Assembly: GCF_032854445.1 (NCBI RefSeq)
Contig: NC_088302.1
Location: 55,838,237 to 55,902,236, forward strand
Origin: Liolophura sinensis
Lineage: Eukaryota > Mollusca > Polyplacophora > Chitonida > Chitonidae
Direction: 5' to 3'
DNA: 64,000 bases
Of the stretch, positions 30,111 to 56,293 are shown piece by piece. Positions within the stretch are counted from its first letter, which is position 1. Each line of letters opens with the position of its first letter. The translations under genes and the position numbers were made by a program. The notes beneath the pieces were generated by a model. That model was given only the letters and a program-made list of their open reading frames with translations. It made no database searches and was not told the origin of the DNA.

Positions 30111-30282
30111 ACCTGGCTTTGCACCCATACATCTCATTGCCAAAGCCAAGACTAGATATTGTGCAGAATGTAGTTTTAATGGTATTGTGTTCTTAACTGC
30201 TGAAGAGCTTTACTGGAAACAGTTTATCTGACTAGATATGAAAGAACGACCAATGTAAACATGTATCAAGTTTCACTGCAGG

Positions 30283-31550
30283 TGATTTGGTAGGTTTTCA
30301 CAGATATGCTGTAGGTGGTTTGGTAGTTCTTCACAGATACACTGCAGGTGGTTTGGTAGTTTTTCATAGATACACTGCAGGTGGTTTGGTAGGTTTTCAT
30401 AGATACACTGCAAGTGGTTTGGTAGTTTTTCACAGATATACTGCAGGTGGTTCGGTAGTTTTTCATAGATACACTGCAGGTGGTTTGGTAGGTTTTCACA
30501 GATACACTGCAGGCGGTTTGGTAGTTTTTCACAGATACACTGCAGGTGGTTTGGTAGGTTTTCACAGGTACACTGCAGGTGGTTTGGTAGGTTTTCACAG
30601 ATACACTGCAGGTGGTTTGGTAGTTTTTCATAGATACACTGCAGGTGGTTTGGTAGGTTTTCACAGATACACTGCAGGTGGTTTGGTAGTTTTTCACAGA
30701 TACACTGCAGGTGGTTTGGTAGGTTTTCACAGGTACACTGCAGGTGGTTTGGTAGGTTTTCACAGATACACTGCAGGTGGTTTGGTAGTTTTTCATAGAT
30801 ACACTGCAGGTGGTTTGTTAGTTGTTCACAGGTACACTGCAGGTGGTTCGGTACGTTTTCACAGATACAATGCAGGTGGTTTGGTAGGCTTGCACAGGTA
30901 CACTGCAGGTGGTTTGGTAGGTTTTCACAGATACACTGCAGGTGGTTTGGTAGTTTTTCACAGATACACTGCAGGTGGTTTGGTAGTTTTTCACAGATAC
31001 ACTGCAGGTGGTTTGGTAGGTTTTCACAGATACACTGCAGGTAGTTTGGTAGTTTTTCACAGGTACACTGCAGGTGGTTTGGTAGTTTTTCAGATACACC
31101 GCAGGTGGTTTGGTAGTTGTTCACAGATACACTGCAGGTGGTTTGGTAGTTTTTCACAGGTACACTGCAGGTGGTTTGGTAGTTTTTCAAAGATACACTG
31201 CAGGTGGTTTGGTAGTTTTTTCACAGATACACTGCAGGTGGTTTGGTAGTTTTTCACAGATATACTGCAGGTGGTTTGGTAGTTTTTCATAGATACACTG
31301 CAGGTGGTTTGGTAGGTTTTCACAGATACACTGCAGGTGGTTTGGTAGTTTTTCATAGATACACTGCAGGTGGTTTGGTAGGTTTTCATAGATACACTGC
31401 AGGTGGTTTGGTAGTTTATCACAGATACACTGCAGGTGGTTTGGTAGTTTTTCACAGGTACACTGCAGGTGGTTTGGTAGTTTTTCACAGATACACTGCA
31501 GGTGGTTTGGTAGTCTTTCACAGATACACTGCAGGTGGTTTGGTAGTTTT
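30283..31550. repeat. 33-bp tandem array in intron 6, about 38 copies
   Basis: Unit CACAGATACACTGCAGGTGG followed by TTTGGTAGTTTTT. It has a CTGCAG palindrome at its centre. The period is divisible by three, giving frames of about 300 codons on both strands, which I regard as spurious. Confidence 0.96.
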
Positions 31551-32129
31551 TCAGAGACATACACGTACAAGTATCATCAGGATCATCAAGGGTCAGTACA
31601 AAAAAAAAATTAAAAAAAGTCAATATGTATCTTCTTCAACCAACTTAAGCAACATCTTGCATGACATATATGCGACTTAAGCAACATCTTTCATGATGTA
31701 TATGTGACTTTAGCAACATCTTTCATGACATATGTGACTTTAGCAACATCTTTCAGCCACAGGCGTAAACAGCCTTGACAGCATCAACTGAGGCAATACA
31801 TGTAGGCAGTATCTAATTTGTTCAAGCAGTTTCAACCTTTTTGAGTTTTTAACTTCTTGCCTTTTTCCGGTATTTAACATGCACATGATGAAGCAGCAAT
31901 GGAATATCTTGTGTTATTGCACTCTACACTTTGTTTAACATTGCTTTCCTTGTCATTGGATGCCAACGCTGAAGCTCGGGGTGTGACATAAGCTAAACAT
32001 GCTGTACATATCAGCAGAAAGACAATTAAAACTCTTTACATTTTCAAAGTACTCTGAAAGAAAAGGTTGGTAAGATTTCAATAGCTCCCCATTACCAACT
32101 GAACCAAGTTTTCCTGGGAAAGCTGATCA
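31551..32129. other. GTF3A intron 6, spacer
   Basis: Contains a short repeated segment (AGCAACATCTTTCATGA, about 4 times at 31645-31755). Otherwise nothing is recognised. Confidence 0.5.
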
Positions 32130-33130
32130 ATGGTTATGCTGTGTGATTCAGTGGGCTTCACTGGGTGCACCGACCGATGAAAATGGTGTGTCCTACAGTG
32201 GGCTTCACTGTACGCTGATCAATAGTTATGGTGTGTCATATAGTGGGCTTGAATGGGTATGCTGATCAATGATTATAGTGTCAATTAGTAGATTTGACCG
32301 GGTGTGCTGAACAATGGTTACTTTGTGTGATTTAGTGGGCTTCACTGGGTGTGCTGATCAGTGGTTATGCTGAGTCATATCGTGGCCTTCACTTTATGCT
32401 GATCAATGGTTAAGCTCTGTCATATAGTGGGTTTCGCTGGTGTGCTGATCAATGGTTAAGCTCTGTCATATCGTGGGCTTCACTATTCTTATCAATGGTT
32501 ACGCTGTGTTATATGGTGGGTTTCACTGGGTATGCTGATCAATGCTTATGCTGTGTTATATAGTGGGCTTCACTTGGTATGCTGATCAATAGTTATGGCG
32601 TGTGATTCAGTGGGCTTCATTGGGTATACTGATCAATGGTTATGGTGTGTCATATAGTGGGCTTCACCGGGTGTGCTAATAACCGGTTAGGTTGTGTCAT
32701 ATAGTGGGTTTCATTGGGTATGTTGATCGATGGTCACACAGTGGCCTTCACTGGGTGTGCTGATCAATGGTCATGGTGTGTCATATAGACGGACTGACTA
32801 GGTATGCTGATCAATGGTTACATTTACGTTGTGATTCAGTGGGCTTCACTGGTGCTGATCAATAGTTATGGCACGTGATTCAGTTGGCTTCACTGGGTAT
32901 GCTGATCAATGGTTACACTGTGTCATATAGTGGGCTTCACTGGGTGTGCTGATCAACGGTTATGCTGTGTCATATAGTGGGCTTCACTGGGTATGTTTAT
33001 CAATGGTCACAGTGTCATATAGTGGCCTTCACTGGGTGTGCTGATCAATGGTTACATGTACGTTGTGTGATTCAGTGGGCTTCACTGGGTATGGGGATCA
33101 ATAGTTATGGCATGTGATTCAGTGGGGTTC
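32130..33130. repeat. 47-bp degenerate tandem array in intron 6, about 21 copies
   Basis: Unit GATCAATGGTTATGCTGTGT, then CATATAGTGGGCTTCACTGG, then GTGTGCT. It is clearly more diverged than the 33-, 44- and 69-bp arrays, hence probably older. Confidence 0.9.
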
Positions 33131-33872
33131 ACTTCCAGAATCACAACCATTTACAAATCTCAGCACCAGGCTATATGTGGTCACCTCATTTTCACTCACA
33201 CATTGGTTACTACAGGATGTGGCATGCCCTGTCCTTCAACAGCAACTCAAACTCAACAGCAAGTTTATTTTTCCTTCAGAATTATTGATATCAGCGATGC
33301 ACTTTTCTGGGAGCCCCTGGCACCTGTTGTCTCTCAGTACAGACTGATCCACTCAATCTCAATTCTCCAAGGACAATGTAACAACATCAGACTATGTCGA
33401 TATATCAAAGCCTTATGCAAGTCTGGCTCCTACAGGAAACAGTGTGTGACCAAGAAACCACTAAACGGATAGGTATAATGCATTATACGTATTTAATGCA
33501 TTAAGACTGAATATGGGAATATCTCCTTGTAGTGACCTCTGATACACATTTGTACTGTCTGATATGTATATGTGTACCAACATGAACGTGTGTGTACACA
33601 CACACAAACATACACACACACACTATATATATATATTCAAAGATGTGAATGATGCAGTATGATGTGGAGTAAAGTCCATTTCCAATGAATATGTTAACTC
33701 TTCTCCCATCCCATGAATCCTGACTTGGATTGAACTGTCTTCTTGACAAACTTATCACTTGAACAATAGCAACACAAACTCTACAATGTATATGGATTAC
33801 ATGAGACTGAACTACAACTGGTACAGGTATTTACTTTAGAAATTATTAGCTGACAACAAAAACACATGATTA
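33131..33872. other. GTF3A intron 6, spacer with CA/TA microsatellite
   Basis: A simple (CA)n/(TA)n tract lies at about 33590-33640. No exon is supported. Confidence 0.5.
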
Positions 33873-33885
33873 CAATATTATTTGA

Positions 33886-34160
33886 TTTTTTTTTTTTTTT
33901 TTTTTTTTGATTGGTGTTTTACGCCGTACTCAAGAATATTTCACTTATACGACGGCGGCCAGCATTATGGTGGGTGGAAACCGGGCAGAGCTCGGCGGAA
34001 ACCCACGACCATCCGCAGGTTGCTGGCAGACCTTCCCACGTACGGCCGGAGAGGAAGCCAGCATGAGCTGGTCTTGAACTCACAGCGACCGCATTGGTGA
34101 GAGGCTTCTGGGTCACTACGCTGCGCTAGCGCGCTAACCGACTGAGCCACGGAGGCCCCC
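33886..34160 (-). mobile_element. SINE family A, full-length, in GTF3A intron 6
   Basis: Best-preserved copy. Its head contains TGGCTCAGTCGGTTAGCGCG and box B GGTCGCTGTGAGTTCAAGACC, followed by the full body and a long T-run (poly-A tail on the minus strand). It is flanked by a perfect 13-bp target duplication, CAATATTATTTGA, at 33873-33885 and 34161-34173. It is in the same orientation as the host gene. Confidence 0.93.
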
Positions 34161-34173
34161 CAATATTATTTGA

Positions 34174-34574
34174 GAATTAAGACAAAAGCTATAGTTGATA
34201 GCTTGTATGTATCCTGCGGAGATTTTTAAGTAGCTTTCCATAATCACATGTATGCCCACTGGTAGGCCTACTTACGTTCTTGAATGTAGGGTTACCTATT
34301 GTGAAATAAAGAAATAGGCACATTTTCTTTCACCAACACTCGGTGTGAGTAGATGCTGGCACCTGGCTATTTATGACAATTAAAACTTTTAATCAATGAC
34401 TAGCAGGGTTTGATCAGCCGGAATTAACACTTGCATGACAGCCCCAGTCACACCCCTAGTACCAAAGATGGATATATTGTAGAGTTCACATTAAATGATT
34501 TAAATATTCGCACAATATATTTGTCAGCATTAGACATCGGCTGAAATGAAACCTGCATTACCTGATATGTCCGG
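34174..34574. other. GTF3A intron 6, spacer
   Basis: Nothing recognised. Confidence 0.5.
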
Positions 34575-37500
34575 CACACATGTACTTGTACGGTGTAACC
34601 AAGGCCTGTATGTCCTGCCACACGTGTCCTTGTACAGTGTGGCCAAGGCCTGTACATCCCAGCACACGTGTACTTGTACAGTGTAGCCAAGGCCTGTACG
34701 TCCCTGCACACGTGTACTTGTGCAGTGTAGCCAAGGCCTGTACATCCTGGCACATGTGTACTTGTTCGATGTAGCCAAGGCCTGTACGTCCCGGAAAAGG
34801 GTGTACTTGTACGCTGTAGCCAAGGCCTGTACGTCCTGCCACACGGATACTTGTACGGTGTAGCCAAGGCCTGTATGTCCTGACACAGGGATACTTGTAC
34901 GCTGTAGCCAAGACCTGTATGTCCTGCCACATTGATACTTGTACGCTGTAGCCAAGGCATGTATGTCCTGCCACACATGTACTTGTATGCTGTACCCAAG
35001 GCCTGTATGTCCTGCCACACGGATACTTGTACGCTGTAGCCAAGGCATGTATGTCCTGCCACACATGTACTTGTATGCTGTACCCAAGGCCTGTATGTCC
35101 TGACACAGGGATACTTGTACGCTGTAGCCAAGACCTGTATGTCCTGCCACACAAGTACTTGTACGCTGTAGCCAAGGCCTGTACGTCCTGCCACACATGT
35201 ACTTGTATGCTGTACCCAAGGACTGTATGTCCTGACACAGGGATACTTGTACGCTGTAGCCAAGGCCTGTATGTCCTGCCACACGGATACTTGTACGCTG
35301 TAGCCATGGCATGTATGTCCTGCCACACATGTACTTGTATGCTGTACCCAAGGCCTGTATGTCCTGACACAGGGATACTTGTACGCTGTAGCCAAGGCCT
35401 GTACGTCCTGCCACACATATACTTGTACGCTGTAGCCATGGCCTGTATGTCCTGCCACACGGATACTTGTACGGTGTAGCCAAGGCATGTACGTCCTGCC
35501 ACACATGTACTTGTACGCTGTAGCCATGGCCTGTATGTCCTGCCACACGGATACTTGTACGGTGTAGCCAAGGCCTGTATGTCCTGACACAGGGATACTT
35601 GTACGCTGTAGCCAAGGCATGTACGTCCTGCCACATGGATACTTCTACCGTGTAGCCAAGGCCTGTACATCCTGCCACACGGATACTTATATGCTGTGCC
35701 CAAGGCATATATGTCCTGCCACACATGTACTTGTACGCTGTAGCCAAGGCCTGTATGCCCTGCCACACATGTACTTGTACGCTGTACCCAAGGACTGTAT
35801 GTCCTGACACAGGGATACTTGTACGCTGTAGCCAAGACCTGTATGTCCTGCCACACGGATACTTGTACGCTGTAGCAAAGGCCTGTATGTCCTGACACAG
35901 GGATACTTGTACGCTGTAGCCAAGGCCTGTATGTCCTGACACAGGGATACTTGTACGCTGTAGCCAAGACCTGTATGTCCTGCCACATTGATACTTGTAC
36001 GCTGTAGCCAAGGCCTGTATGTCCTGCCACACGGATACTTGTACAGTGTAGCCAAAGCCTGTATGTCCTGCCACACAAGTACTTGTACGCTGTAGCCAAG
36101 GCCTTTACCTCCTGCCACACAGAGATACTTGTACGGTGTAGCCAAGGCCTGTAAGTCCTGACACACGGATACTTGTACGCTGTAGCCAAGGCATGTACGT
36201 CCTGCCACACGGATACTTGTACGTTGTAGCCAAAGCCTGTATGTCCTGCCACACATGTACTTGTACGCTGTACCCAAGGACTGTATGCCCTGACACAGGG
36301 ATACTTGTACGGTGTAGCCAAGACCTGTATGTCCTGCCACATTGATACTTGTACGCTGTAGCCAAGGCCTGTATGTCCTGCCACACGGATACTTGTACGC
36401 TGTAGCCAAGGCATGTACGTCCTGCCACACATGTACTTGTACGTTGTAGCCAAAGCCTGTATGTCCTGCCACACATGTACTTGTACGCTGTACCCAAGGC
36501 CTGTATGTCCTGCCACACGGATACTTGTACGCTGCGGACAAGGCATGTACGTCCCGGCACACATGTACTTGTACGCTGCGGCCAAGGCATGTACGTCCTG
36601 CCACACATGTACTTGTACTCTGTAGCCAAGGTCTGTATGTCCTGCCACACGGATACTTGTACGGTGTAGCCAAGGCCTGTATGTCCTGGCACACATGTAC
36701 TTGTACGCTGTAGCCAAGGCCTGTATGTCCTGCCACACATGTACTTGTACACTGTAGCCAAGGCCTATATGTCCTGCCACACATGCACTTGTACGCTGTA
36801 GCCAAGGCCTGTACGTCCTGCCACATATGTACTTGTACGCTGTAGCCAAGACCTGTATGTCCTGCCACACAGATACTTGTACGCTGTAGCCAAGGCCTGT
36901 AAGTCCCGCACACATGTACTTGTACGCTGTAGCCAAGGCCTGTATGTCCTGCCACACGGATACTTGTATGCTGCGGCCAAGGCATGTACGTCCTGCCACA
37001 CATGTACTTGTACGCTGTACCCAAGGCCTGTATGTCCTGCCACACGGATACTTGTACGGTGTAGCCAAGGCCTGTATGTCCTGCCACACATGTACTTGTA
37101 CGCTGTACCCAAGGCCTGTATGTCCTGCCACACGGATACTTGTACGGTGTAGCCAAGGCATGTACGTCCTGCCACACATGTACTTGTACGCTGTACCCAA
37201 GGCCTGTATGTCCTGCCACACGGATACTTGTACGGTGTAGCCAAGGCATGTACGTCCTGCCACACATGTACTTGTACGCTGTACCCAAGGCCTGTATGTC
37301 CTGCCACACGGATACTTGTACGGTGTAGCCAAGGCCTGTATGTCCTGCCACACGGATACTTGTACGGTGTAGCCAAGGCCTGTATGTCCTGCCACACGGA
37401 TACTTGTACGGTGTAGCCAAGGCCTGTATGTCCTGCCACACGGATACTTGTACGCTGTACCCAAGGCATGTACGTCCTGCCACACATGTACTTGTACGCT

Positions 37501-38525
37501 GTACTCGAGGCCTGTATGTCCTGCCACACATGTACTTGTACGGTGTAGCCAAGGCCTGTACGTCCTGCCACACATGTACTTGTACGGTGTAGCGAAGGCC
37601 TGTATGTCCCGCACACGTACTTGTACGCTGTACCCAAGGCCTGTATGTCCTGCCACACGTATACTTGTACGGTGTAGCCAAGGCCTGTATGTCCTGCCAC
37701 ACGGATACTTGTACGGTGTAGCCAAGGCATGTACGTCCTGCCACACATGTACTTGTACGGTGTAGCCAAGGCTTGTATGTCCCACACACGTACTTGTACG
37801 CTGTACCCAAGGCCTGTATGTCCTGCCACACATGTACTTGTACGGTGTAGCCAAGGCTTGTATGTCCCACACACGTACTTGTACGCTGTACCCAAGGCCT
37901 GTATGTCCTGCCACACGGATACTTGTACGCTGTACCCAAGGCCTATACGTCCTGCCACACATGTACTTGTATGGTGTAGCCAAGGCCTGTATGTCCTGCC
38001 ACACATGTACTTGTATGGTGTAGCCAAGGCCTGTATGTCCTGCTACACGTGTACTTGTACGCTGTAGCCAAGGTCTGTATGTCCTGCCACACATGTACTT
38101 GTATGGTGTAGCCAAGGCCTGTATGTCCTGCTACACGTGTACTTGTACGCTGTAGCCAAGGCTTGTATGTCCCGTCACACATGTACTTGTATGGTGTAGC
38201 CAAGGCGTGTATGTCCTGCCACACGGATACTTGTACGGTGTAGCCAAGGTATGTATGTCCTGCCACACATGTACTTGTATGCTATAACCAAGGCCTGTAT
38301 GTCCTGCCACACGGATACTTGTACGGTGTAGCCAAGGCCTGTATGTCCTGCCACACAAGTACTTGTACGCTGTAGCCAAGGCCTGTACCTCCTGCCACAC
38401 AGAGATACTTGTACGGTGTAGCCAAGGCCTGTATGTCCTGACACACGGATACTTGTACGGTGTAGCCAAGGTATGTATGTCCTGCCACACATGTACTTGT
38501 ACGCTATAACCAAGGCCTGTATGAG
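34575..38525. repeat. 44-bp tandem array in intron 6, about 90 copies
   Basis: Unit CTGTATGTCCTGCCACACAT, then GTACTTGTACGCTGTAGCCA, then AGGC. On the minus strand the unit has no stop codon in any frame, so overlapping frames of up to 1185 codons cross it. These cycle every 132 nt through YKYMCGRTYRPW, VAGHTGLGY and VQVHVWQDIQALAT. I do not call a gene: there is no flanking coding sequence and the same peptides appear in all frames. Confidence 0.97.
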
Positions 38526-38937
38526 TTTCTGGCATATTTAGACCTGTATACTGGGTATCAGAAGACTCAGGAATATCGTGAAAATATGTCAGTGCGAAAC
38601 CGGAACTTTCTTTTGGAAAAGTTTCATGAGTGGAACCACTGTTGTTATTGTTTCTTTGAATTTGTTTCTTGTGTAGACTTGCAATGAAAGCCTCTTTACC
38701 GATTGCCGTTTTACACAACAATGCTTAAACATATCACTACGCAGTATCACTACTCAGTATCACTACGCAGTATCACTATGACCAATACAGGGAATCGTTT
38801 GATTCCCTTAAATCATTTAAACTGAATGGGCAAACAAAGGGTGTAGATCCAGTTCAGCTCTTCAGAGAAAAATAAATAAACGAATGCAAATGATTTATGG
38901 GGACGGTCCTTTACAAAGTCACTATATGACTGTCAAG
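38526..38937. other. GTF3A intron 6, spacer
   Basis: A short ATCACTACGCAGT repeat (4 times, about 38730-38780). Nothing else. Confidence 0.5.
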
Positions 38938-41098
38938 AAACCCAACTTGTCTGTGAGCCACTGTATAATCAACAAACCCAACTTGTCTGTGAGCCACTGT
39001 ACAGTCAACAAACCCACCTTGTCTGTGAGCCACATCAGTTAACAAACCCACCTTGTCTGTGAGCCACTGTACGGTCAACAAACCCACCTTGTCTGTGAGC
39101 CACATCGGTTAACAAACCCACCTTGTCATCAGTTAACAAACCCACCTTGTCTGTGAGCCACTGTACATCAGTCCACAAACCCACCTTGTCTGTGAGCCAC
39201 TGTACATCAGTCCACAAACCCACCTTGTCTGTGAGCCACTGTACATCAGTCCACAAACCCACCTTGTCTGTGAGCCACTGTACAGTCAACAAACCCACCT
39301 TGTCTGTGAGCCACATCAGTTAACAAACCCACCTTGTCTGTGAGCCACTGTATAGTCAACAAACCCACCTTGTCTGTGAGGCACTGTAAATCAGTCAACA
39401 AACCCACCTTGTCTGTGAGCCACTGTATAGTCAACAAACCCACCCTGTCTGTGAGCCACTGTAAATCAGTCCACAAACCCACCTTGTCTGTGAGCCACTG
39501 TACATCAGTCCACAAACCCACCTTGTCTGTGAGCCACTGTACAGTCAACAAACCCACCTTGTCTGTGAGCCACATCAGTTAACAAACCCACCTTGTCTGT
39601 GAGCCACTGTACAGTCAACAAACCCACCTTGTCTGTGAGCCACATCAGTTAACAAACCCACCTTGTCTGTGAGCCACTGTACAGCAGTCAACAAACCCAC
39701 CTTGTCTGTAAGCCACGGTACAGCAGAGTCAACAAACTCACCTTATCTGTGGGCCACTGTACAGCAGTCAACAAACCCACCTTGTCTGTGAGCCACTGTA
39801 CATCAGTCAACAAACCCACCTTGTCTGTGAGCCACTGTACATCAGTCAACAAACCCACACTGTCATCAGTTAACAAACCCACCTTGTCTGTGAGCCACTG
39901 TACATCAGTCAACAAACCCACCTTGTCTGTGAGCCACTGTACATCAGTCAACAAACCCACCTTGTCTGTGAGCCACTGTATAGTCAACAAACCAACCTTG
40001 TCTGTGAGCCACTGTACATCAGTCAACAAACCCACACTGTCATCAGTTAACAAACCCACCTTGTCTGTGAGCCACTGTACATCAGTCAACAAACCCACCT
40101 TGTCTGTGAGCCACTGTACATCAGTCAATAAACCCACCTTGTCTGTGAGCCACTGTACATCAGTCAACAAACCCACCTTGTCTGTGAGCCACTGTATAGT
40201 CAACAAATCCACCTTGTCGGTGAGCCACTGTACAGTCAACAAACCCACCTTGTCTGTGAGCCACATCAGTTAACAAATCCACCTTGTCTGTGAGCCACTG
40301 TACAGTCAACAAACCCACCTTGTCTGTGAGCCACATCAGTTAACAAACCAACCTTGTCTGTGAGCCACTGTATAGTCAACAAACCCACCTTGTCTGTGAG
40401 CCACATCAGTTAACAAACCCACCTTGTCTGTGAGCCAATGTACATCAGTCAATAAACCCACCTTGTCTGTGAGCCACTTTACAGCAGTCAACAAACCCAC
40501 CTTCTCTGTGAGCCACTGTATAGTCAACAAACCCACCTTGTCTGTGAGGCACTGTAAATCAGTCAACAAACCCACCTTGTCTGTGAGCCACTGTATAGTC
40601 AACAAACCCACCTTGTCTGTGAGCCACTGTAAATCAGTCAACAGGCCCACCTTGTCTGTGAGCCACTGTAAATCAGTCAACAAACCCCTCTTGTCTTTGA
40701 GGTACTGTACATCAGTTAACAAACCCACTTTGTAAGTGGGCCACTGTAAAGCAGTCAACAAACCCACATTGTCTGTGAGCCACTGTATAGTCAACAAACC
40801 CACCTTGTCTGTGAGCCACTGTAAATCGGTCAACAGACCCACCTTGTCTGTGAGCCACTGTAAATCAGTCAACAAACCCCTCTTGTCTTTGAGGTACTGT
40901 ACATCAGTTAACAAACCCACCTTGTCTGTGAGCCACTGTTAATCAGTCAACAAACCCACCTTATCCGTGAGCCACTGTAAAGCAGTCAACAAACCCACAT
41001 TGTCTGTGAGCCACTGTCCATCAGTTAACAAACCCACCTTGTCTGTGAGCCACTTTACATCAGAGTCAACAAACCCACCTTGTCTATGAGCCACTGTA
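38938..41098. repeat. 39-bp array seeded by the exon 6/intron 6 junction, about 55 copies
   Basis: On the minus strand the unit is ACAGTGGCTCACAGACAAG joined to GTGGGTTTGTTGACTGATGT. The first 19 nt copy the 3' end of GTF3A exon 6 (one base differs) and the next 20 nt copy the start of intron 6, including the GTGGGT donor. Shorter variants of about 34-37 nt (lacking part of the intron segment) are interspersed. The array abuts exon 6 directly. Confidence 0.96.
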
Positions 41099-41165
41099 CG
41101 GTGTTTCCACAGCTGGGTCCACTTCTCAAACCTCATCCCACAGTCCTGCTCACTGCACACATACC
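41079..41165 (-). CDS. GTF3A: GTF3A exon 6: zinc finger 6
   Basis: Residues 167-195. The acceptor is CTTCAG and the donor is CAAG/GTGGGT. It begins with GG (completing a Gly codon) and ends in phase 1. The finger is YVCSEQDCGMRFEKWTQLWK followed by HRTVAH, with H-x4-H as in TFIIIA finger 6; EKWTQL occupies the place of the TWT-containing helix of the Xenopus protein (from memory). Reading on past the donor, the frame stays open through about 46 further codons of the array to 40939. The 3' end of this exon is the template of the downstream array, so the genuine donor is only the first of dozens of near-identical donors. Confidence 0.95.
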
Positions 41166-41444
41166 CTGAAGCATGACAGATAAATATTATACAGCCAAGG
41201 TGAATTTGACCGAGATCTCCACATATCGTGATGAGACAAATCTAAATCTGAATTTAGTCACATTTCTGTAGCATAAAGATCCAAGCACAAGGTTTAATGA
41301 CCCTAGCATACAACATACAGCAAAATCCCTTTATCTTAAAACATGAAAGTCTTGATATGTAATTTACGGACATTTTCCCCACGGTAGATTAGAATATAAG
41401 CCAAAGTGTAACAAAATAAAGTGACTAACAAGCATCTACTTACG
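41166..41444. other. GTF3A intron 5, acceptor-proximal part
   Basis: Unique sequence between the 40-bp array and the exon 6 acceptor; nothing else. Confidence 0.6.
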
Positions 41445-42175
41445 TGACTACATACATTCATGGACTTTCTGATGCCTCTGTAAGTGACTACGTACCTTCA
41501 TGGACTTTCTGAGGCCTCTGTAAGTGACTACGTACCTTCATGGACTTTCTGAGGCCTCTGTAAGTGACTACTTACCTTCATGGACTTTCTGAGGCCTCTG
41601 TAAGTGACTACATACCTTCATGGACTTTCTGATGCCTCTGTAAGTGACTACATACCTTCATGGACTTTCTGATGCCTCTGTAAGTGACTACGTACCTTCA
41701 TGGACTTTCTGATGCCTCTGTAAGTGACTACTTACCTTCATGGACTTTCTGATGCCTCTGTAAGTGACTACATACCTTCATGGACTTTCTGATGCCTCTG
41801 TAAGTGACTACGTACCTTCATGGACTTTCTGAGGCCTCTGTAAGTGACTACTTACCTTCATGGACTTTCTGATGCCTCTGTAAGTGACTACGTACCTTCA
41901 TGGACTTTCTGAGGCCTCTGTAAGTGACTACTTACCTTCATGGACTTTCTGAGGCCTCTGTAAGTGACTACGTACCTTCATGGACTTTCTGATGCCTCTG
42001 TAAGTGACTCTGTATCTTCATGGACTTTCTGATGCCTCTGTAAGTGACTACTTACCTTCATGGACTTTCTGATGCCTCTGTAAGTGACTACATACCTTCA
42101 TGGACTTTCTGATGCCTCTGTAAGTGACTCCGTATCTTCATGTACTTTCTACTCCCTCTGTAAGTGATTACTTAC
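41445..42175. repeat. 40-bp array seeded by the exon 5/intron 5 junction, about 18 copies
   Basis: On the minus strand each unit is a copy of the last 34 nt of exon 5 (AGTCACTTACAG, AGGCATCAG, AAAGTCCATGAAG) plus the first six intron bases. Seventeen complete units carry the GAAG/donor step. Fifteen keep GT: five GTAAGT, six GTACGT and four GTATGT. Two have AT. The array starts exactly at the exon 5 donor and fills about 72% of intron 5. Confidence 0.97.
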
Positions 42176-42249
42176 CTTCATGTACTTTCTGATGCCTCTG
42201 TAAGTGACTGGCAGTTTTGAAGGCTTTATTGCAGTTTTCCACCATACAC
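42176..42249 (-). CDS. GTF3A: GTF3A exon 5: zinc finger 5
   Basis: Residues 142-166. The acceptor is GTAAACAG and the donor is GAAG/GTAAGT. The first base completes a Leu codon and the exon ends in phase 1. The finger is LCMVENCNKAFKTASHLQRH then QKVH, C-x4-C-x12-H-x3-H, and KVHEGY matches the KVHAGY linker of the family (from memory). Its last 34 nt, covering the end of the recognition helix and both zinc-binding histidines, are the template for the 40-bp array that follows. The exon also contains an internal acceptor-like ACTTACAG. Only 269 bp separate it from exon 4. Confidence 0.95.
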
Positions 42250-42518
42250 CTGTTTACAAAAAATATCAGTTATCGTCACACCAGGAATTACATGAATTTC
42301 TAACCCTTTTGTTCCATGATTACATGCAGGTGTCACTTTTCCTTCTGAGCTTGATTGACAAAATCTTACAAGTGGTAAAAGCAAATGTTAAAACCAGGTT
42401 TGTCCCAAATTAATCACATTGAGAATTGAGCATTTAAAAGTGATACCCAGAACAAAGAGAGACCTCAAACCAACTAGTCTCCAAGTGTTCCTGTTTACAA
42501 TCAGCAGAGAAAACTTAC

Positions 42519-42607
42519 AGGTATGGGTTCACATGGGTGTGTTCTGTCTCGTGACACTTCAGCTGATGATGTTTCTTAAAAGTCTTGTCACAGCCTTCAT
42601 AATGGCA
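42519..42607 (-). CDS. GTF3A: GTF3A exon 4: zinc finger 4
   Basis: Residues 113-141. The acceptor is TATTTTCAG and the donor is GTAAGT. It starts in phase 0 and ends in phase 2. The finger is CHYEGCDKTFKKHHQLKCH then ETEH. KKHHQLK is close to the KKHNQLK helix of vertebrate finger 4, the best single match to the family that I can see. Exons 3 and 4 flank the 10.8-kb intron 3. Confidence 0.95.
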
Positions 42608-43304
42608 CTGAAAATAATAAAACATGATGCAAACATTCAACTACAATAATGTTCATCTGACGCAGTCTACAGAGTTTTAAGGTTTACAGATAACGACTAT
42701 GTCATATACACACATCTAAAGCTTGTGAAACACTAATATCTTCCAGCAGTTAAATGGCTTAGTGATGAACAATATAAGAAACATAAACTGAGCTTCATAA
42801 ACTGTAAAAAGTAAAGCCTTGCAGTTACATTGTTTTTTCAACTGATAGGATTTGTATTTTTGCTTTGATGTCTGGGATATTAGAGCTTGAACTGATATTT
42901 CTGTATGAAAAAACCTATAAAGCAAGAATGGGTAAATTCTCTTTAAACGATAATAATGATACAAGATGTACATAATGTTTGAAAAGAATTTGTTTCTGAT
43001 GCTTGGTTTGAAACATTACAGATACATGTTTACATGTCTATTAATCTGTTGACTTACATGGACACGTATCAAGTGTATGTGTGTCCATGAGCAAAACTGG
43101 TTGCACAGGATTAACAAATATGGACGTTTTCAGGAATCAAAGCTATCAGTTATATATAGGTTGTTCACCTTTTTCCAAAAGGAAATCTGTATCTATGTGG
43201 GCATGATCAATAAATATCTATAACTAGAAGTGTGTTTCCAGGCAAAATGATGGCTCACAGATTTCTGTGAGAAAGGAATGTGGAACAGAGCCAGCAAAAG
43301 TCAC
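42608..43304. other. GTF3A intron 3, spacer
   Basis: Nothing recognised. Confidence 0.5.
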
Positions 43305-43845
43305 AGGTTGAGCCTATATGATCGTCCCACATTTGAGCCTTTATGATCTCGTCCCAGATTGAGCTTATATGATCTTGTCACAGACTGAGCCTATATGACC
43401 TCGTCACAGGTTGAGCCTATATGATCTTGTCACACATTTGAGCCTATATGATCTTGTCCCAGATTGAGCTTATCTGATCTTGTCACAGACTGAGCCTATA
43501 CAATCTCGTCACAGACTGAGCCTATAGGATCTCATCACAGATTGAGCCTATATGATCTCATCACAGATTGAGTCCATATGATCTCATCACATATTTAGCC
43601 TATATGATCTTGTCACAGATTGAGCCTATATGATCTCGTCACAGATTGAGCCTATAGGATCTCATCACAGATTGAGCCTATAGGATCTCATCACAGATTG
43701 AGCCTATAGGATCTCATCACAGATTTAGCCTATATGATCTTGTCACAGACTGAGCCTATATGATATTGTCACAGGTTGAGCCTATATGATCTTGTCACAG
43801 ATTTGAGCCTAAATGATCTCGTCACAGGTTGAGCCTATATGCCTC
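43305..43845. repeat. 26-bp tandem array in intron 3, about 21 copies
   Basis: Unit TCACAGATTGAGCCTATATG followed by ATCTCG; moderately diverged. Confidence 0.92.
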
Positions 43846-44639
43846 CTGAACATTGTAAAGGTCACTTCGCTTAACATACCTTGTCCAGTGATATTATATA
43901 TGTACAGCTTTCAAATGAACAGTCTAGCAATGGTTACTGTTGTGTATGATGTAATAAACATGAAAACTGTTAATCCCGTTGGTAAAGTTTAAAGGTCACT
44001 GAGTTTCGTAACAACATGTCACTTTCATCTAAGCCCAGGAACATTTTCTGATATGATATTACAAGCAAACCTGTTTCTCATTACACTAGCATGATGGCCA
44101 TCAGGTTGTGTTCAGGCTCTCTTTGACAGCTGAACGATGTCCCATTATTCAGTGTTAATATAAGCAATATGAACTCTTATGGAACAGTACCATGAGCAAA
44201 GCTTGCCATGTAGGCATTGATAATGATACGTGTGGGTAATTGCCCGGTCCGTTGGTCATTCCGGTGATGTACATGTAACTAAACACCTGATAATCAGCAT
44301 TGTGGGAGGACAACATATGACAGCGTGGACGCGAAGATCAAAGATGACACAAGTAAATGTATACAGTGCCAGAGCAAATGTGCAAAGACTAACCACAATC
44401 AATATCCTGCAAACACTGAGTAGATCTAGTCCTGTTTGATGAAGGTGAAGATCAGTAAATAAAGCAAAATGTAAGACAACCGTAGACCGATAACCGTAGA
44501 CCGATAACCGTAGACCAATGCTTTTGGACGGACACGAACATGTGCTAATTTGGTACAAGATGGTCACATGATCAAGGAAGCTGAGGCAAACATGGCTACA
44601 GTATACTTGTTCATGTTTCAATTGTAAAACAACTAATGT
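43846..44639. other. GTF3A intron 3, spacer
   Basis: A 14-15 bp triplet repeat (CCGTAGACCGATAA) lies at about 44479-44517. No exon is supported. Confidence 0.5.
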
Positions 44640-45040
44640 TTATGTCTGCATGATAAAACACCTAATGTTTACATGGTAAAGCACCTAATGTGAATGTTTA
44701 AAAGGTAAAACACCTAATGTTTACATGGTAAACACGTAATGTTTACGTTTACATGGTAAAACATCTAATGTGTACGTTTACAAGGTAAAAACCTAATGTT
44801 TACATTTGCATGGTAAAACACCTAATGTGTATGTTTACATGGTTAAACACCTAATGCCTACGCTTGCATAGTAAAACACCTAATGTGTACATTAACAAGG
44901 TAAAACACCTAATGAGATGTTTACATGCCAAACACCCTAATTTTTACATTTACATCATAAAACAACTAATGTTTATGTTTACAAGGTAAAACACCTAATG
45001 TTTACATGGTTAAACACATAATGTTTACGTTAACATGACC
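44640..45040. repeat. About 23-bp irregular tandem array, about 16 copies
   Basis: Unit GGTAAAACACCTAATGTTTACAT with frequent length variants. Confidence 0.85.
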
Positions 45041-45189
45041 AAACATTGGTTATTTTCCAGTATTTTCATGTACTTGTGGTAAGCAGCTTAATATCATGTG
45101 CTAAGATAGTTAGAATGAGATTCATCCCATTGGCCCTTGTTCACTGATTGGCTGGTGTTGAAAAACATTCCTTAGAATTTTTTTACTTT

Positions 45190-45553
45190 ATGTGACAGCA
45201 GTAAGGTTTGTGGGTGGAGGAAACTGGAGAGTCTGGGAAAAACCTGAGTGCTTGGAGGAAGCCTGAGTGCCTGTTGGGAAACTTGAGTGCCTGGAGAAAA
45301 CCTTAGTGCTTGGAGGAAACATGAGTGCCTGGAGAAAAACTAAGTGCCTGGAGGAAACATGAGTGCCTGGAGGAAACACGAGTGCCTGGAGGAAACACGA
45401 GTGCCTGCAGAAAACAACTGACCTTTGGGAAATAAGAAACAAACCTCTTAACATAAAGTCTCCAGAGCTGGATTTGAACACATGGATTCATTTCACTAGG
45501 ACGTGATGAATGCAAGCCAGTGCTTTAACCATCTGAGCCAGGGGGCCAATGTG
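45190..45553 (-). mobile_element. SINE family B with an expanded internal repeat
   Basis: On the minus strand the tRNA-like head contains GGCTCAGATGGTTAAAGCAC (box A) and GTGTTCAAATCC (box B), ending at about 45553. The body reads GGAGGAAAC-like on the plus strand. Within the body an 18-bp unit (GAGTGCCTGGAGGAAACA) has expanded to about 10 copies at 45225-45415, a minisatellite born inside a SINE. Confidence 0.7.
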
Positions 45554-45611
45554 TGACTAGAGAATACTCTATGTTCTATCTGAATATATGCACAGCTATA
45601 TCATACAGCTG

Positions 45612-45845
45612 TGCTTCACTGGCTGAGATGGTTAAAGTGTCAGACTGTTGACCCTGAGGTCACGTAGTCGAATCTAGCTCTTGCAGTTCTGAGTGTGGCT
45701 TTATGTCAGGAGGTTGGTCTGTTACCCAATGAACGTCAGGGGTTTACACCTGGCACTCAAGTTTTATCAATCCATAAAACACACTGCCGTCATTCAAGTG
45801 AAAAGTTATAACAGCATTAAAAACACAATTAAATAAATAAAAAAA
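45612..45845 (+). mobile_element. SINE family B-like, plus strand
   Basis: Box A-like GGCTGAGATGGTTAAAGTGT, box B-like GTAGTCGAATC, a body and an AAATAAATAAAAAAATAA tail. It lies head to head with the element at 45190-45553, with about 60 bp between them. Confidence 0.65.
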
Positions 45846-46104
45846 TAACTTAACACTCCCACCAGGAAATTGTCTGTCACATACGCTCTGATGCCTGTCC
45901 AAATATACTGCTACATTGAAACATCCATATGTGGATAATACCAACATTGGATAAGCATAATTCTGATAGTCTGCCATTCCACCTGTACATGTGTGACGCA
46001 CGATAGCAGAGAGTTAGGAGACAAATTCATGCAATGTTTCCATATTGTTCGGTTCCATAACAACCGAGGTGTTCACACTGCATTTGTATTGGCGACGTAA
46101 ATAG
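45846..46104. other. GTF3A intron 3, spacer
   Basis: Nothing recognised. Confidence 0.5.
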
Positions 46105-49100
46105 AACATACATGTACCAGTGGACATAAAGGATAGGTGTACCAGCTGAAAGGTGCTCTGAGCACTGACTGACAACATACATGTACCAGTGGACATAGAG
46201 GATAGGTGTACCAGCTGAAAGGTGCTCTGAGCACTGACTGACAACATACATGTACCAGTGGAAATAAAGCATAGGTGTACCAGCTGAAAGGTGCTCTGAG
46301 CACTGACTGACAACATACATGTACCTGTGGACATCAAGGATAGGTGTACCAGCTGAAAGGTGCTCTGAGCACTGACTGACAACATACATGTACCAGTGGA
46401 CATACAGGATAGGTGTACCAGCTGAAAGGTGCTCTGAGCACTGACTGACAACATACATGTACCAGTGGAAATAAAGGATAGGTGTACCAGCTGAAAGGTG
46501 CTCTGAGCACTGACTGACAACATACATGTACCAGTGGAAATAAAGGATGGGTGTACCAGCTGAAAAGTGCTCTGAGCACTGACTGACAACATACATGTAC
46601 CCGTGGAAATAAAGGATAAGTGTACCAGCTGAAAGGTGCTCTGAGCACTGACTGACAACATACATGTACAGTGGACATAAAGGATAGGTGTACCAGCTGA
46701 AAGGTGCTCTGAGCACTGACTGACAACATACATGTACCAGTGGAAATAAAGCATAGGTGTACCAGCTGAAAGGTGCTCTGAGCACTGACTGACAACATAC
46801 ATGTACCTGTGGACATCAAGGATAGGTGTACCAGCTGAAAGGTGCTCTGAGCACTGACTGACAACATACATGTAAAGTGGACATAAAGGATAGGTGTACC
46901 AGCTGAAAGGTGCTCTGAGCACTGACTGACAACATACATGTACCAGTGGAAATAAAGGATAGGTGTACCAGCTGAAAGGTGCTCTGAGCACTGACTGACA
47001 ACATACATGTACCAGTGGAAATAAAGGATGAGTGTACCAGCTGAAAGGTGCTCTGAGCACTGACTGACAACATACATGTACCCGTGGAAATAAAGCATAA
47101 GTGTACCAGCTGATAGGTTCTCTGAGCACTGACTGACAACATACATGTACCCGTGGAAATAAAGGATAGGTGTACCAGCTGAAAGGTGCTCTGAGCACTG
47201 ACTGACAACATACATTTACCCGTGGAAATAAAGGATGGGTGTACCAGCTGAAAGGTGCTCTGAGCACTGACTGACAACATACATGTACCCGTGGACATAA
47301 AGGATAGGTGTACCAGCTGAAAGGTGCTCTGAGCACTGACTGACAACATACATGTACCCGTGGAAATAAAGGATAGGTGTACCAGCTGAAAGGTGCTCTG
47401 AGCACTGACTGAAAGCATACATGTACCTGTGGACATAAAGGATAGGTGTACCAGCTGAAAGGTGCTCTGAGCACTGACTGACAACATACATGTACCAGTG
47501 GACATAAAGGATAGGTGTACCAGCTGAAAGGTGCTCTGAGCACTGACTGACAACATACATGTACCCGTGGAAATAAAGGATAGGTGTACCAGCTGAAAGG
47601 TGCTCTGAGCACTGACTGACAACATACATGTACCCGTGGAAATAAAGGATGAGTGTACCAGCTGAAAGGTGCTCTGAGCACTGACTGACAACATACATGT
47701 ACCCATGGAAATAAAGGATAGGTGTACCAGCTGAAAGGTGCTCTGAGCACTGACTGACAACATACATGTACCAGTGGAAATAAAGGATGGGTGTACCAGC
47801 TGAAAGGTGCTCTGAGCACTGACTGACAACATACATGTACCTGTGGACATCAAGGATAGGTGTACCAGCTGAAAGGTGCTCTGAGCACTGACTGACAACA
47901 TACATGTAAAGTGGACATAAAGGATAGGTGTACCAGCTGAAAGGTGCTCTGAGCACTGACTGACAACATACATGTACCAGTGGAAATAAAGGATAGGTGT
48001 ACCAGCTGAAAGGTGCTCTGAGCACTGACTGACAACATACATGTACCAGTGGAAATAAAGGATGAGTGTACCAGCTGAAAGGTGCTCTGAGCACTGACTG
48101 ACAACATACATGTACCCGTGGAAATAAAGCATAAGTGTACCAGCTGATAGGTTCTCTGAGCACTGACTGACAACATACATGTACCCGTGGAAATAAAGGA
48201 TAGGTGTACCAGCTGAAAGGTGCTCTGAGCACTGACCGACAACATACATTTACCAGTGGAAATAAAGGATGGGTGTACCAGCTGAAAGGTGCTCTGAGCA
48301 CTGACTGACAACATACATGTACCCGTGGACATAAAGGATAGGTGTACCAGCTGAAAGGTGCTCTGAGCACTGACTGACAACATACATGTACCAGTGGAAA
48401 TAAAGGATAGGTGTACCAGCTGAAAGGTGCTCTGAGCACTGACTGAAAGCATACATGTACCTGTGGACATAAAGGATAGGTGTACCAGCTGAAAGGTGCT
48501 CTGAGCACTGACTGACAACATACATGTACCAGTGGACATAAAGGATAGGTGTACCAGCTGAAAGGTGCTCTGAGCACTGACTGACAACATACATGTACCC
48601 GTGGAAATAAAGGATAGGTGTATCAGCTGAAAGGTGCTCTGAGCACTGACTGACAACATACATGTACCAGTGGACATAAAGGATAGGTGTACCAGCTGAA
48701 AGGTGCTCTGAGCACTGACTGACAACATACATGTACCCGTGGAAATAAAGGATAGGTGTACCAGCTGAAAGGTGCTCTGAGCACTGACTGACAACATACA
48801 TGTACCCGTGGAAATAAAGGATGAGTGTACCAGCTGAAAGGTGCTCTGAGCACTGACTGACAACATACATGTACCCATGGAAATAAAGGATAGGTGTACC
48901 AGCTGAAAGGTGCTCTGAGCACTGACTGACAACATACATGTACCAGTGGAAATAAAGGATGGGTGTACCAGCTGAAAGGTGCTCTGAGCACTGACTGACA
49001 ACATACATGTACCTGTGGACATCAAGGATAGGTGTACCAGCTGAAAGGTGCTCTGAGCACTGACTGACAACATACATGTAAAGTGGACATAAAGGATAGG

Positions 49101-52100
49101 TGTACCAGCTGAAAGGTGCTCTGAGCACTGACTGACAACATACATGTACCAGTGGAAATAAAGGATAGGTGTACCAGCTGAAAGGTGCTCTGAGCACTGA
49201 CTGACAACATACATGTACCAGTGGAAATAAAGGATGAGTGTACCAGCTGAAAGGTGCTCTGAGCACTGACTGACAACATACATGTACCCGTGGAAATAAA
49301 GCATAAGTGTACCAGCTGATAGGTTCTCTGAGCACTGACTGACAACATACATGTACCCGTGGAAATAAAGGATAGGTGTACCAGCTGAAAGGTGCTCTGA
49401 GCACTGACCGACAACATACATTTACCCGTGGAAATAAAGGATGGGTGTACCAGCTGAAAGGTGCTCTGAGCACTGACTGACAACATACATGTACCCGTGG
49501 ACATAAAGGATAGGTGTACCAGCTGAAAGGTGCTCTGAGCACTGACTGACAACATACATGTACCCGTGGAAATAAAGGATAGGTGTACCAGCTGAAAGGT
49601 GCTCTGAGCACTGACTGAAAGCATACATGTACCTGTGGACATAAAGGATAGGTGTACCAGCTGAAAGGTGCTCTGAGCACTGACTGACAACATACATGTA
49701 CCAGTGGACATAAAGGATAGGTGTACCAGCTGAAAGGTGCTCTGAGCACTGACTGACAACATACATGTACCCGTGGAAATAAAGGATAGGTGTACCAGCT
49801 GAAAGGTGCTCTGAGCACTGACTGACAACATACATGTACCCATGGAAATAAAGGATGAGTGTACCAGCTGAAAGGTGCTCTGAGCACTGACTGACAACAT
49901 ACATGTACCCATGGAAATAAAGGATAGGTGTACCAGCTGAAAGGTGCTCTGAGCACTGACTGACAACATACATGTACCCGTGGAAATAAAGGATGGGTGT
50001 ACCAGCTGAAAGGTGCTCTGAGCACTGACTGACAACATACATGTACCTGTGGACATCAAGGATAGGTGTACCAGCTGAAAAGTGTTCTGAGCACTGACTG
50101 ACTACATACATGTACCCGTGGAAATAAAGGATAGGTGTACCAGCTGAAAGGTGCTCTGAGCACTGACTGACAACGTACATTTACCCGTGGAAATAAAGGA
50201 TGGGTGTATCAGCTGAAAGGTTCTCTGAGCACTGACTGAAAGCATACATGTACCAGTGGAAATAAAGGATAGGTGTACCAGCTGAAAGGTGCTCTGAGCA
50301 CTGACTGACAACATACATGTACCAGTGGAAATAAAGGATAGGTGTACCAGCTGAAAGGTGCTCTGAGCACTGACTGACAACATACATGTACCAGTGGAAA
50401 TAAAGGATGAGTGTACCAGCTGAAAGGTGCTCTGAGCACTGACTGACAACATACATGTACCTGTGGAAATAAAGCATAGGTGTACCAGCTGATAGGTTCT
50501 CTGAGCACTGACTGACAACATACATGTACCCGTGGAAATAAAGGATGGGTGTACCAGCTGAAAGGTGCTCTGAGCACTGACTGACAACATACATTTACCC
50601 GTGGAAATAAAGGATGGGTGTACCAGCTGAAAGGTGCTCTGAGCACTGACTGACAACATACATGTACCCGTGGACATAGAGGATAGGTGTACCAGCTGAA
50701 AGGTGCTCTGAGCACTGACTGACAACATACATGTACCAGTGGAAATAAAGGATAGGTGTACCAGCTGAAAGGTGCTCTGAGCACTGACTGAAAGCATACA
50801 TGTACCCGTGGACATAAAGGATAGGTGTACCAGCTGAAAGGTGCTCTGAGCACTGACTGACAACATACATGTACCAGTGGACATAAAGGATAGGTGTACC
50901 AGCTGAAAGGTGCTCTGAGCACTGACTGACAACATACATGTACCAGTGGAAATAAAGGATAGGTGTACCAGCTGAAAGGTGCTCTGAGCACTGACTGACA
51001 ACATACATGTACCAGTGGAAATAAAGGATGAGTGTACCAGATGAAAGGTGCTCTGAGCACTGACTGACAACATACATGTACCCATGGAAATAAAGGATAG
51101 GTGTACCAGCTGAAAGGTGCTCTGAGCACTGACTGACAACATACATGTACCCGTGGAAATAAAGGATGGGTGTACCAGCTGAAAGGTGCTCTGAGCACTG
51201 ACTGACAACATACATGTACCTGTGGACATCAAGGATAGGTGTACCAGCTGAAAAGTGTTCTGAGCACTGACTGACTACATACATGTACCCGTGGAAATAA
51301 AGGATAGGTGTACCAGCTGAAAGGTGCTCTGAGCACTGACTGACAACGTACATTTACCCGTGGAAATAAAGGATGGGTGTATCAGCTGAAAGGTTCTCTG
51401 AGCACTGACTGAAAGCATACATGTACCTGTGGAAATAAAGGATAGGTGTACCAGCTGAAAGGTGCTCTGAGCACTGACTGACAACATACATGTACCCGTG
51501 GAAATAAAGGATAGGTGTATCAGCTGAAAGGTTCTCTGAGCACTGACTGAAAGCATACATGTACCAGTGGAAATAAAGGATAGATGTACCAGCTGAAAGG
51601 TGCTCTGAGCACTGACTGAAAGCATACATGTACCCGTGGACATAAAGGATAGGTGTACCAGCTGAAAGGTGCTCTGAGCACTGACTGACAACATACATGT
51701 ACCAGTGGACATAAAGGATAGGTGTACCAGCTGAAAGGTGCTCTGAGCACTGACTGACAACATACATGTACCAGTGGAAATAAAGGATAGGTGTACCAGC
51801 TGAAAGGTGCTCTGAGCACTGACTGACAACATACATGTACCAGTGGAAATAAAGGATGAGTGTACCAGATAAAAGGTGCTCTGAGCACTGACTGACAACA
51901 TACATGTACCCATGGAAATAAAGGATAGGTGTACCAGCTGAAAGGTGCTCTGAGCACTGACTGACAACATACATGTACCCGTGGAAATAAAGGATGGGTG
52001 TACCAGCTGAAAGGTGCTCTGAGCACTGACTGACAACATACATGTACCTGTGGACATCAAGGATAGGTGTACCAGCTGAAAAGTGTTCTGAGCACTGACT

Positions 52101-52738
52101 GACTACATACATGTACCCGTGGAAATAAAGGATAGGTGTACCAGCTGAAAGGTGCTCTGAGCACTGACTGACAACGTACATTTACCCGTGGAAATAAAGG
52201 ATGGGTGTATCAGCTGAAAGGTTCTCTGAGCACTGACTGAAAGCATACATGTACCTGTGGAAATAAAGGATAGGTGTACCAGCTGAAAGGTGCTCTGAGC
52301 ACTGACTGACAACATACATGTACCAGTGGAAATGAAAGATAGGTGTACCAGCTGAAAGGTACTCTGAGCACTGACTGACAACATACATTTACCCGTGGAA
52401 ATAAAGGATAGGTGTATCAGCTGAAAGGTTCTCTGAGCACTGACTGAAAGCATACATGTACCAGTGGAAATAAAGGATAGATGTACCAGCTGAAAGGTGC
52501 TCTGAGCACTGACTGACAACATACATGTACCCGTGGACATAAAGGATTTTTGTACCAGCTGAAAGGTGCTCTGAGCACTGACTGACAACATACATGTACC
52601 CGTGGAAATAAAGGATAGGTGTACCAGCTGAAAGGTGCTCTGAGCACTGACTGACAATATACATGTACCAGTGGACATAAAGGATAGGTGTACCAGCTGA
52701 AAGGTGCTCTGAGCAATGAATGACAACATACATGTACC
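46105..52738. repeat. 69-bp tandem array in intron 3, about 96 copies
   Basis: Unit ACATACATGTACCCGTGGAA, ATAAAGGATAGGTGTACCAG, CTGAAAGGTGCTCTGAGCAC, TGACTGACA. Every unit contains the hairpin GTGCTC-T-GAGCAC and the palindrome TACATGTA. Variant units recur in the same order at a spacing of about 1173 bp (17 units; for example the CGTACATTTACC unit near 50174 and 51347), and of 828 bp (12 units) at the high-coordinate end. The period is divisible by three, so open frames of up to about 600 codons cross it; I do not call them genes. Confidence 0.97.
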
Positions 52739-52754
52739 ACATACAAGGAAAGTC

Positions 52755-52995
52755 ATTGTTGATATATTCGAAGTGATCACAAGTTATTGCTCAGATAATC
52801 AGACGAAGTGATCACAAATTATTGCTCAGATAATCAGATGAAGTGATCATGTCATTGTTCAGATAATCAGACGAAGTCATCACAAGTTATTGCTCAGATA
52901 ATCAGACGAAGTTATCACAAGTTATTGTTCAGATAATCAGACGAAGTCAGCACAAGTTATTGTACAGATAATCAGACGAAGGGATCACAAGTTAT
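52755..52995. repeat. 35-bp tandem array, about 7 copies
   Basis: Unit GATCACAAGTTATTGCTCAG followed by ATAATCAGACGAAGT. It follows the 69-bp array within 20 bp but is unrelated in sequence. Confidence 0.92.
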
Positions 52996-53408
52996 TGTTA
53001 CTACACTACTGGCATCACAGAATGTTGGAACTATGAACCAAAGCTTGTCTGCCAGTTTGCACCTTAGTACAAAAAAAACTTTCTTACCAAAACTACAAAT
53101 GTCTTAAATTCCAGCTTACTTTTACTTCTTTTTACTTCTGTGAGGTAAAGTGTACAAGTGACAAAACACCACATAGGAGAAAATAATGATATTCAAGAGT
53201 TCAAAAGGGATTACCAGGCTTGTTGGCTGCTATTAGAAAACTTCTCAACTGAACTCAAATTTTGCGTTACAAACCAGACATTGAACATTCACAATTCCAA
53301 TAGAATATCTTCAGTATAAAATGACTCTCAAATTTAACTAGTACGTATAAGCATCCTCAACTTTAATTCATTTCCTTCTTGTTTTTTTCTTGAATCACAT
53401 CCACCCAC
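52996..53408. other. GTF3A intron 3, donor-proximal part
   Basis: Unique AT-rich sequence. It begins on the minus strand with the exon 3 donor GTGGGT. No array is seeded here. Confidence 0.6.
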
Positions 53409-53499
53409 CTTGTATTCTTTGGGCTGATGTATCCGCTCTATGTGACGGCTTAAACTCAAACTGTTAGCAAATTCTTGTTCACAGCTTTCAACTGTGCAT
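53409..53499 (-). CDS. GTF3A: GTF3A exon 3: zinc finger 3
   Basis: Residues 82-112. The acceptor is CTTGTTTCAG and the donor is AAG/GTGGGT. The first base completes a Lys codon and the exon ends in phase 0. The finger is KCTVESCEQEFANSLSLSRH then IERIH, with H-x4-H, the spacing of TFIIIA finger 3. Fingers 1-3 provide most of the 5S gene C-box binding in the family. The exon is 31 codons and joins exons 2 and 4 without residue loss. Confidence 0.94.
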
Positions 53500-53939
53500 C
53501 TGAAACAAGAAAGGAAAACAAGACAGAGTGATAATGTATCAGCAAACTGTAATCATATCATGACTGCTTTTAATGAAGCATGTCCTCCTATACTATATGG
53601 GACTACAAGTATATGGTTGGCAGGGTTATTTCCCCTGAACTTGCATGTACCTTGTCAGACAAGTTTTCAGGCTCTATCCCATACTCTCTTAGTTTTCACA
53701 TTACTGCCACCACTAGTAAATTTTGCACAGAAATCTTGAACAATGCCAAGGCCACTGGTGTCATGGGGATGGGGTAGGAAGTGATGTGAGAATCACAAAA
53801 GCCCTGTCTTAACCATTCTTTCTATCAATTATTAATACACATACATTCTCTTTATCTAAAGTAAACATTCTAACCAACAAATGAAAAAATTTTACTGATG
53901 AATACTTATTAAATAGTTCCATGTGAGGAGACAAGTGGT
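53500..53939. other. GTF3A intron 2, spacer
   Basis: Nothing recognised. Confidence 0.5.
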
Positions 53940-56265: not shown

Positions 56266-56293
56266 TGTCACGGACGCTGAGGGTAGGACTTAC

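Follow-up and report, generated by a model that had tools for sequence, protein, structure and literature searches.

The window, by which we mean the whole stretch of 64,000 nucleotides of the chiton Liolophura sinensis that was analyzed, carries the TFIIIA (GTF3A) gene on its minus strand. Joining its nine exons yields one open frame of 469 codons, whose final stop lies inside an array of tandem copies in exon 9. The assignment to GTF3A, which the initial annotation had already made, is borne out by an alignment of the encoded protein with TFIIIA chain 1tf6 over query residues 16-194 (E 3.8e-36), and by a match to the Pfam family TFIIIA_zf-C2H2 (5.6e-11) in keeping with its series of C2H2 fingers. 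The boundary of exon 5 that had been proposed, at the donor that we call genuine, is supported by the joined open frame and by homology: it appears sound because the residues KVHEGYVC, which span the spliced joint between exons 5 and 6, align with KVHAGYPC of 1tf6. The proposed exon 6 acceptor has to be moved by one base, since exon 6 starts at 41165 and position 41166 is the last base of the intron. The features are as follows, all on the minus strand, with the basis of each call in brackets where one applies.

25229..59128, minus strand: TFIIIA (GTF3A) gene, nine exons (homology and joined frame)
59128-58997, minus strand: exon 1 (joined frame)
56406-56294, minus strand: exon 2 (joined frame)
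53499-53409, minus strand: exon 3 (joined frame)
42607-42519, minus strand: exon 4 (joined frame)
42176..42249, minus strand: exon 5 of 74 nt (finger 5), followed by the genuine donor, GT at 42175 (phase and homology)
41444..42209, minus strand: first junction array, 19 units of 40 bp, the genuine junction among them (TRF and unit reading)
41438..41449, minus strand: distal edge of this array, AGTCAC then GTAAGT, donor-like GT at 41443 (letters)
41079..41165, minus strand: exon 6 of 87 nt (finger 6), followed by the genuine donor, GT at 41078 (joined frame and homology)
38932..41098, minus strand: second junction array, 59 copies of 36/39-bp units that start within the last bases of exon 6
28227-28004, minus strand: exon 7 (joined frame)
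26746-26693, minus strand: exon 8 (joined frame)
26225 to the stop, minus strand: exon 9 (the stop falls within the array of this exon; with the array treated as an intron, at about 25229)

The window is rich in arrays: TRF identified 31 of them, after merging by hand, and together they cover 29,122 of its 64,000 bases, a share far above that in the flanks of the exons sampled elsewhere in the genome (5,556 of 72,000 bases; see below). The longest, in TFIIIA intron 3 (46105-52738), consists of 96 copies of a 69-bp unit with 94% matches. Exon 9 is interrupted by 5.7 copies of a 23-bp unit containing stops (25574-25704, minus strand), and removal of the 112 nt from 25687 to 25576 (GTAGTT...CTCAG) restores a single frame of 582 codons. 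Judged from these letters, the exon 9 array may represent an intron that consists of nothing but tandem copies, with a candidate donor that looks weak by eye. Outside the gene, positions 416-3034 of the minus strand hold long open frames that by eye resemble those of a transposase-like protein.

The array in intron 5 is far beyond what chance would produce (TRF score 1329; period 40, 19.1 copies, 94% matches, 41444-42209), and it fills the first 732 of the 1010 nt of the intron. Its 40-bp unit consists of the last 34 nt of exon 5 and the first 6 nt of the intron, with the genuine junction GAAG|GTAAGT; this anatomy had been described before, and both TRF and a reading of the units confirm it. 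The array itself is real, and the earlier estimate of about 17 copies was slightly low: there are 19 units, namely the genuine junction (unit 0) and 18 copies. Similarly, GT had been reported in 15 of 17 units, five of them perfect. The five perfect copies of GAAG/GTAAGT stand, with the genuine site not counted, while the number retaining GT is somewhat higher, at 16 of the 18. The other retained sites are GAAG/GTACGT (six copies), GAAG/GTATGT (four) and GAAT/GTATGT (one), and the copy closest to exon 5 is among the two that have lost GT. Beyond the last unit, AGTCAC is followed by GTAAGTAGATGC, an edge that probably represents the original start of intron 5. Given such an original intron start at the distal edge, and the unit joint GTAAGT/AGTCAC, the initial event would be a tandem duplication with a 2-bp AG overlap. 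When the genome (609,464,459 bases in 632 contigs) was searched with the array region, using a search that skips very common words, it matched one place, itself, which argues that the array grew where it stands.

Intron 6 begins as intron 5 does, a finding additional to those of the initial annotation. Its units have the junction GACAAG/GTGGGT, GT is retained in 54 of the 58 downstream copies, and there are 49 exact GTGGGT sites, the genuine one included. A distance of 41 nt, not divisible by 3, separates the genuine donor from the first decoy downstream. Thus, tandem units span the exon-intron boundary at both introns, and by coordinates two of the eight donors of the TFIIIA gene lie within arrays, as against none of its eight acceptors.

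We graded the donors by their predicted pairing with the 5' end of the chiton U1 RNA (ATACTTACCTGG), using the ViennaRNA duplex calculation with unmodified bases, a measure that captures only part of donor strength. Most of the at least 41 U1 matches in the genome lie in a tandem series of genes about 2 kb apart (C10:30033968-30140539). Predicted pairing is -12.2 kcal/mol for the genuine intron 5 donor and five of its copies; ten further copies and the terminal site range from -8.0 to -8.4 kcal/mol. Among the remaining genuine donors, those of introns 3, 6 and 8 have predicted values of -11.0, -9.9 and -10.0 kcal/mol, and those of introns 1, 2, 4 and 7 have values of -6.9, -5.6, -6.4 and -5.6 kcal/mol. 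Hence, by this measure, 16 of the 19 decoy sites of intron 5 (18 copies and the terminal site) out-pair four genuine TFIIIA donors, in agreement with the earlier description of a ladder of near-identical donors.

The donor most probably used in splicing is the first one, and at intron 5 it is the protein frame that argues for this choice. The frame of exon 5 stops 5 nt past the genuine donor, and any intron 5 message using a decoy would therefore carry a stop. This agrees with the earlier claim that use of a downstream donor brings in a stop, although the first in-frame stop is a TAA and not, as had been proposed, the TAG in the first unit. The immediate stop and a unit length of 40, which is not a multiple of 3, give no apparent sign of selected isoform use at intron 5. 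Early stops are not a rule across these arrays: the genuine frame is closed by a stop ahead of the first decoy-type donor both at TFIIIA intron 5 and at an array in an RNA polymerase III RPC1 gene, but not at TFIIIA intron 6 or at an array in a GH31 gene (phase 1, taken from the matched frames, being assumed for RPC1 and GH31). At the GH31 junction (L022; around C1:26353400-26354100, plus strand), where the unit is 39 bp long, the frame stays open through several units, and use of a decoy could add 13-residue repeats, not a stop. The matched frame at an array in a GCNT/Branch gene is open for 197 nt.

These last genes emerged from a genome-wide search for three AGGTAAGT words spaced 15-45 nt apart, a pattern with 551 matches, against 395 for the same pattern written backwards. 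Among the donor-pattern matches listed, which extend up to 93.39 Mb of C1, at least 16 arrays were counted by hand. We viewed the upstream flanks of 15 of the 16; the flank of L023 fell short of the array start, and that of L027 comprised only 152 nt. Exons with homology support were found at three arrays: GCNT/Branch (Pfam 2e-6), GH31 (Pfam 3.5e-13, with a PDB match too) and RPC1 (PDB 5.9e-9). Four more arrays (L024, L025, L026 and L030) follow what by eye are candidate exon ends, and the upstream flanks of the other eight showed no recognizable exon. L024 resembles a deoxyribose-phosphate aldolase by eye; this identity received no support from Pfam at 0.1 or from PDB at 0.01, and Pfam gave no match for L026. 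All four were left out of the confirmed genes.

As a complementary approach, we took 120 of the 230 listed exon pieces that match the Pfam families Mito_carr or Ras (40 of 80 and 80 of 150, respectively) and fetched 300 nt on each side. The sample is not random: it consists of partial matches picked by hand, mostly down the ranking, so that near-full-length and many low-ranked matches are missing, and some pieces may be first or last exons. On reading, four of the 120 exons (L037, L061, L069 and L126; 3.3%, 95% interval 0.9-8.3%) have a donor-spanning array, and one (L116) has an acceptor-spanning array. In this mirror case, the end of a 65-bp array lies within the first part of a mitochondrial-carrier exon (C2:20524556-20525302, minus strand), and L147, nearby, holds a similar unit. 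Two other candidates were set aside on reading: L103, which crosses a donor by its TRF coordinates while its array starts inside the intron, and L036, whose contact with the exon match at the acceptor side amounts to only 4 nt. Altogether, donor-spanning arrays are present in this genome at homology-supported exons of seven other genes (GCNT/Branch, GH31, RPC1, three Ras-family exons and one mitochondrial-carrier exon). Extrapolated from this non-random sample to all introns, a rate of 4 in 120 would mean thousands of such arrays.

If donors were hot spots for the birth of arrays, array starts should be common in exons. By TRF coordinates, with L103 and L036 included, the matched exons contain five array starts; the frequency in the next 200 nt of intron would predict 12.7 with lenient settings (chance of so few, 0.013) and 10.4 with strict ones (0.055). 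Array ends numbered two, against 9.6 (lenient; 0.004) or 5.6 (strict; 0.084) expected. Both ends of exons are thus short of arrays, and the shortage may be milder at the donor side. Since array starts are no commoner in exons than in adjoining introns, donors are not hot spots, and the shortage is compatible with arrays being born at random and selection then sparing those that trail into the intron.

It was also of interest whether the decoys themselves are under selection. Over nine arrays (L024 included and L126, whose exact donor is ambiguous, left out), GT is retained in 142 of 151 downstream copies, and mismatches to the consensus amount to 11 of 303 positions in GT, 84 of the 1354 positions of the donor window and 370 of the 5225 other positions. 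The intron 5 array of TFIIIA shows the reverse: mismatches occur at 17 of 162 donor-window positions and at 11 of 564 others. Either the deficit of GT mismatches over the nine arrays or the donor-window variation at intron 5 could hint at selection, although the copies are not independent. Because the copies share descent, we limit our conclusion to the statement that decoy donors are not generally purged.

Taken together, these data are best explained, with a probability that we put at roughly 0.7, by regarding the TFIIIA arrays as splice-junction minisatellites of the kind called mirages in amphioxus, that is, as tolerated by-products of heavy minisatellite birth, splicing keeping to the first donor. 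Minisatellites would arise throughout this minisatellite-rich genome, and those that run from an exon end into an intron would survive because they leave the first exon copy, together with its donor, undisturbed. At intron 5, a 40-bp tandem duplication with the 2-bp AG overlap at its breakpoints would have placed a second donor just inside the intron, and slippage or unequal exchange would then have expanded the array to 19 units. The exon copy would have stayed intact because it is coding, with the remaining intronic copies drifting or being homogenized.

A different possibility is that the arrays are regulatory: the decoys would compete with the genuine donor, their unproductive use (a stop, then nonsense-mediated decay) would tune TFIIIA output, and array length would act as a dial. 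The predicted U1 pairing of 16 of the 19 decoys, which at least equals that of four genuine TFIIIA donors, the genuine-frame stop that decoy use adds and the presence of arrays in two consecutive TFIIIA introns all speak for this idea; nevertheless, we consider it unlikely, as unrelated genes carry the same structure, unit lengths differ (35 to 131 bp) and array starts are not in excess in exons. The last observation also bears on the proposal that donors are preferred birthplaces of minisatellites, for instance through R-loops or breaks at exon-intron borders. Donor-spanning arrays do outnumber acceptor-spanning ones (4 versus 1 in 120) and matches to the donor triple pattern are more numerous than those to the backwards control (551 versus 395). 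The first of these differences is small, however, and the second needs no hot spot, since genuine donors by themselves make AGGTAAGT words more frequent. Simple donor enrichment was accordingly rejected: the backwards pattern already yields 395 matches, and exons hold fewer array starts than the adjoining 200 nt of intron, which leaves preferred birth at donors quite improbable. It is very unlikely that we are dealing with an assembly artefact, in the form of a wrong copy number or a false expansion. HiFi coverage was only 14x, but the mean HiFi read, at 8,347 bp, exceeds the length of both arrays (766 and 2167 bp), distinct variants occur among the intron 5 copies, and many other loci have similar arrays (coverage and read length as given in the available part of PMC11068029).

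Available extracts of two reports on amphioxus (PMC3087553, PMC3902484) describe mirages as minisatellites spanning an exon-intron boundary in Adh3, the globin genes BflGb6 and BflGb9, and troponin C, with similar repeats in PGBD5; many copies keep splice signals, and normal splicing is reportedly undisturbed. The TFIIIA arrays share the boundary-spanning tandem units and the many copies that retain splice signals. They differ from the amphioxus mirages in their host, a mollusc and not a cephalochordate, and in their size, as BflGb6 haplotypes have three or six units according to the extract of PMC3087553, whereas the two chiton arrays have 19 and 59 copies. The extracts give no proportion comparable to the 4 of 120 sampled chiton exons that are affected. 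Human genes in segmental duplications likewise have minisatellites at exon-intron boundaries that duplicate splice signals, and there, as far as the accessible part of PMC2812944 describes them, about four copies of 30 bp on average occur in recent paralogs with alternative transcripts on record. The chiton arrays, in contrast, are long, lie in single genes and are known from sequence alone. The intron-gain model of Rogers, as cited in the available portion of PMC3087553, also involves duplicated segments with splice sites that can be read as new introns. However, the chiton array sits at the start of an intron and does not itself represent a demonstrated new one, and intron 5 has a presumably working donor and acceptor outside the array model. 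The chiton assembly was published as Liolophura japonica (PMC11068029, in the part available), a species name later corrected to Liolophura sinensis by its authors (PMC12441733). The main text of a comparative chiton genome paper (PMC12005716) contains none of the terms "tandem repeat", "minisatellite" and "satellite", and the titles and opening lines of abstracts of open-access papers yielded no report of boundary-spanning arrays in a chiton or other mollusc. The arrays are a known kind of structure in a new phylum, and the earlier judgement that such an array is unusual holds in general but not within the chiton genome, where exon 6 and seven other genes have one too, nor in view of the amphioxus precedents.

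These results extend what was a curiosity of amphioxus to a mollusc, at an apparent genome scale. It is tempting to go further, tentatively, and to propose that the chiton genome contains thousands of donor-spanning minisatellites, that its spliceosome reliably picks the exon-proximal one of up to about 54 near-equal donors, and that some arrays, possibly that of exon 9, become introns. If this were true, the exon-proximal choice would imply a strong rule by which the first donor made is the first used, or by which choice is anchored to the exon. From locus to locus, near-identical donors number from three to more than 50, a natural dose series from which the rules governing 5' splice-site choice could be read in chiton RNA. 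Intron gain by tandem duplication, as that model proposes, would also find raw material in these arrays.
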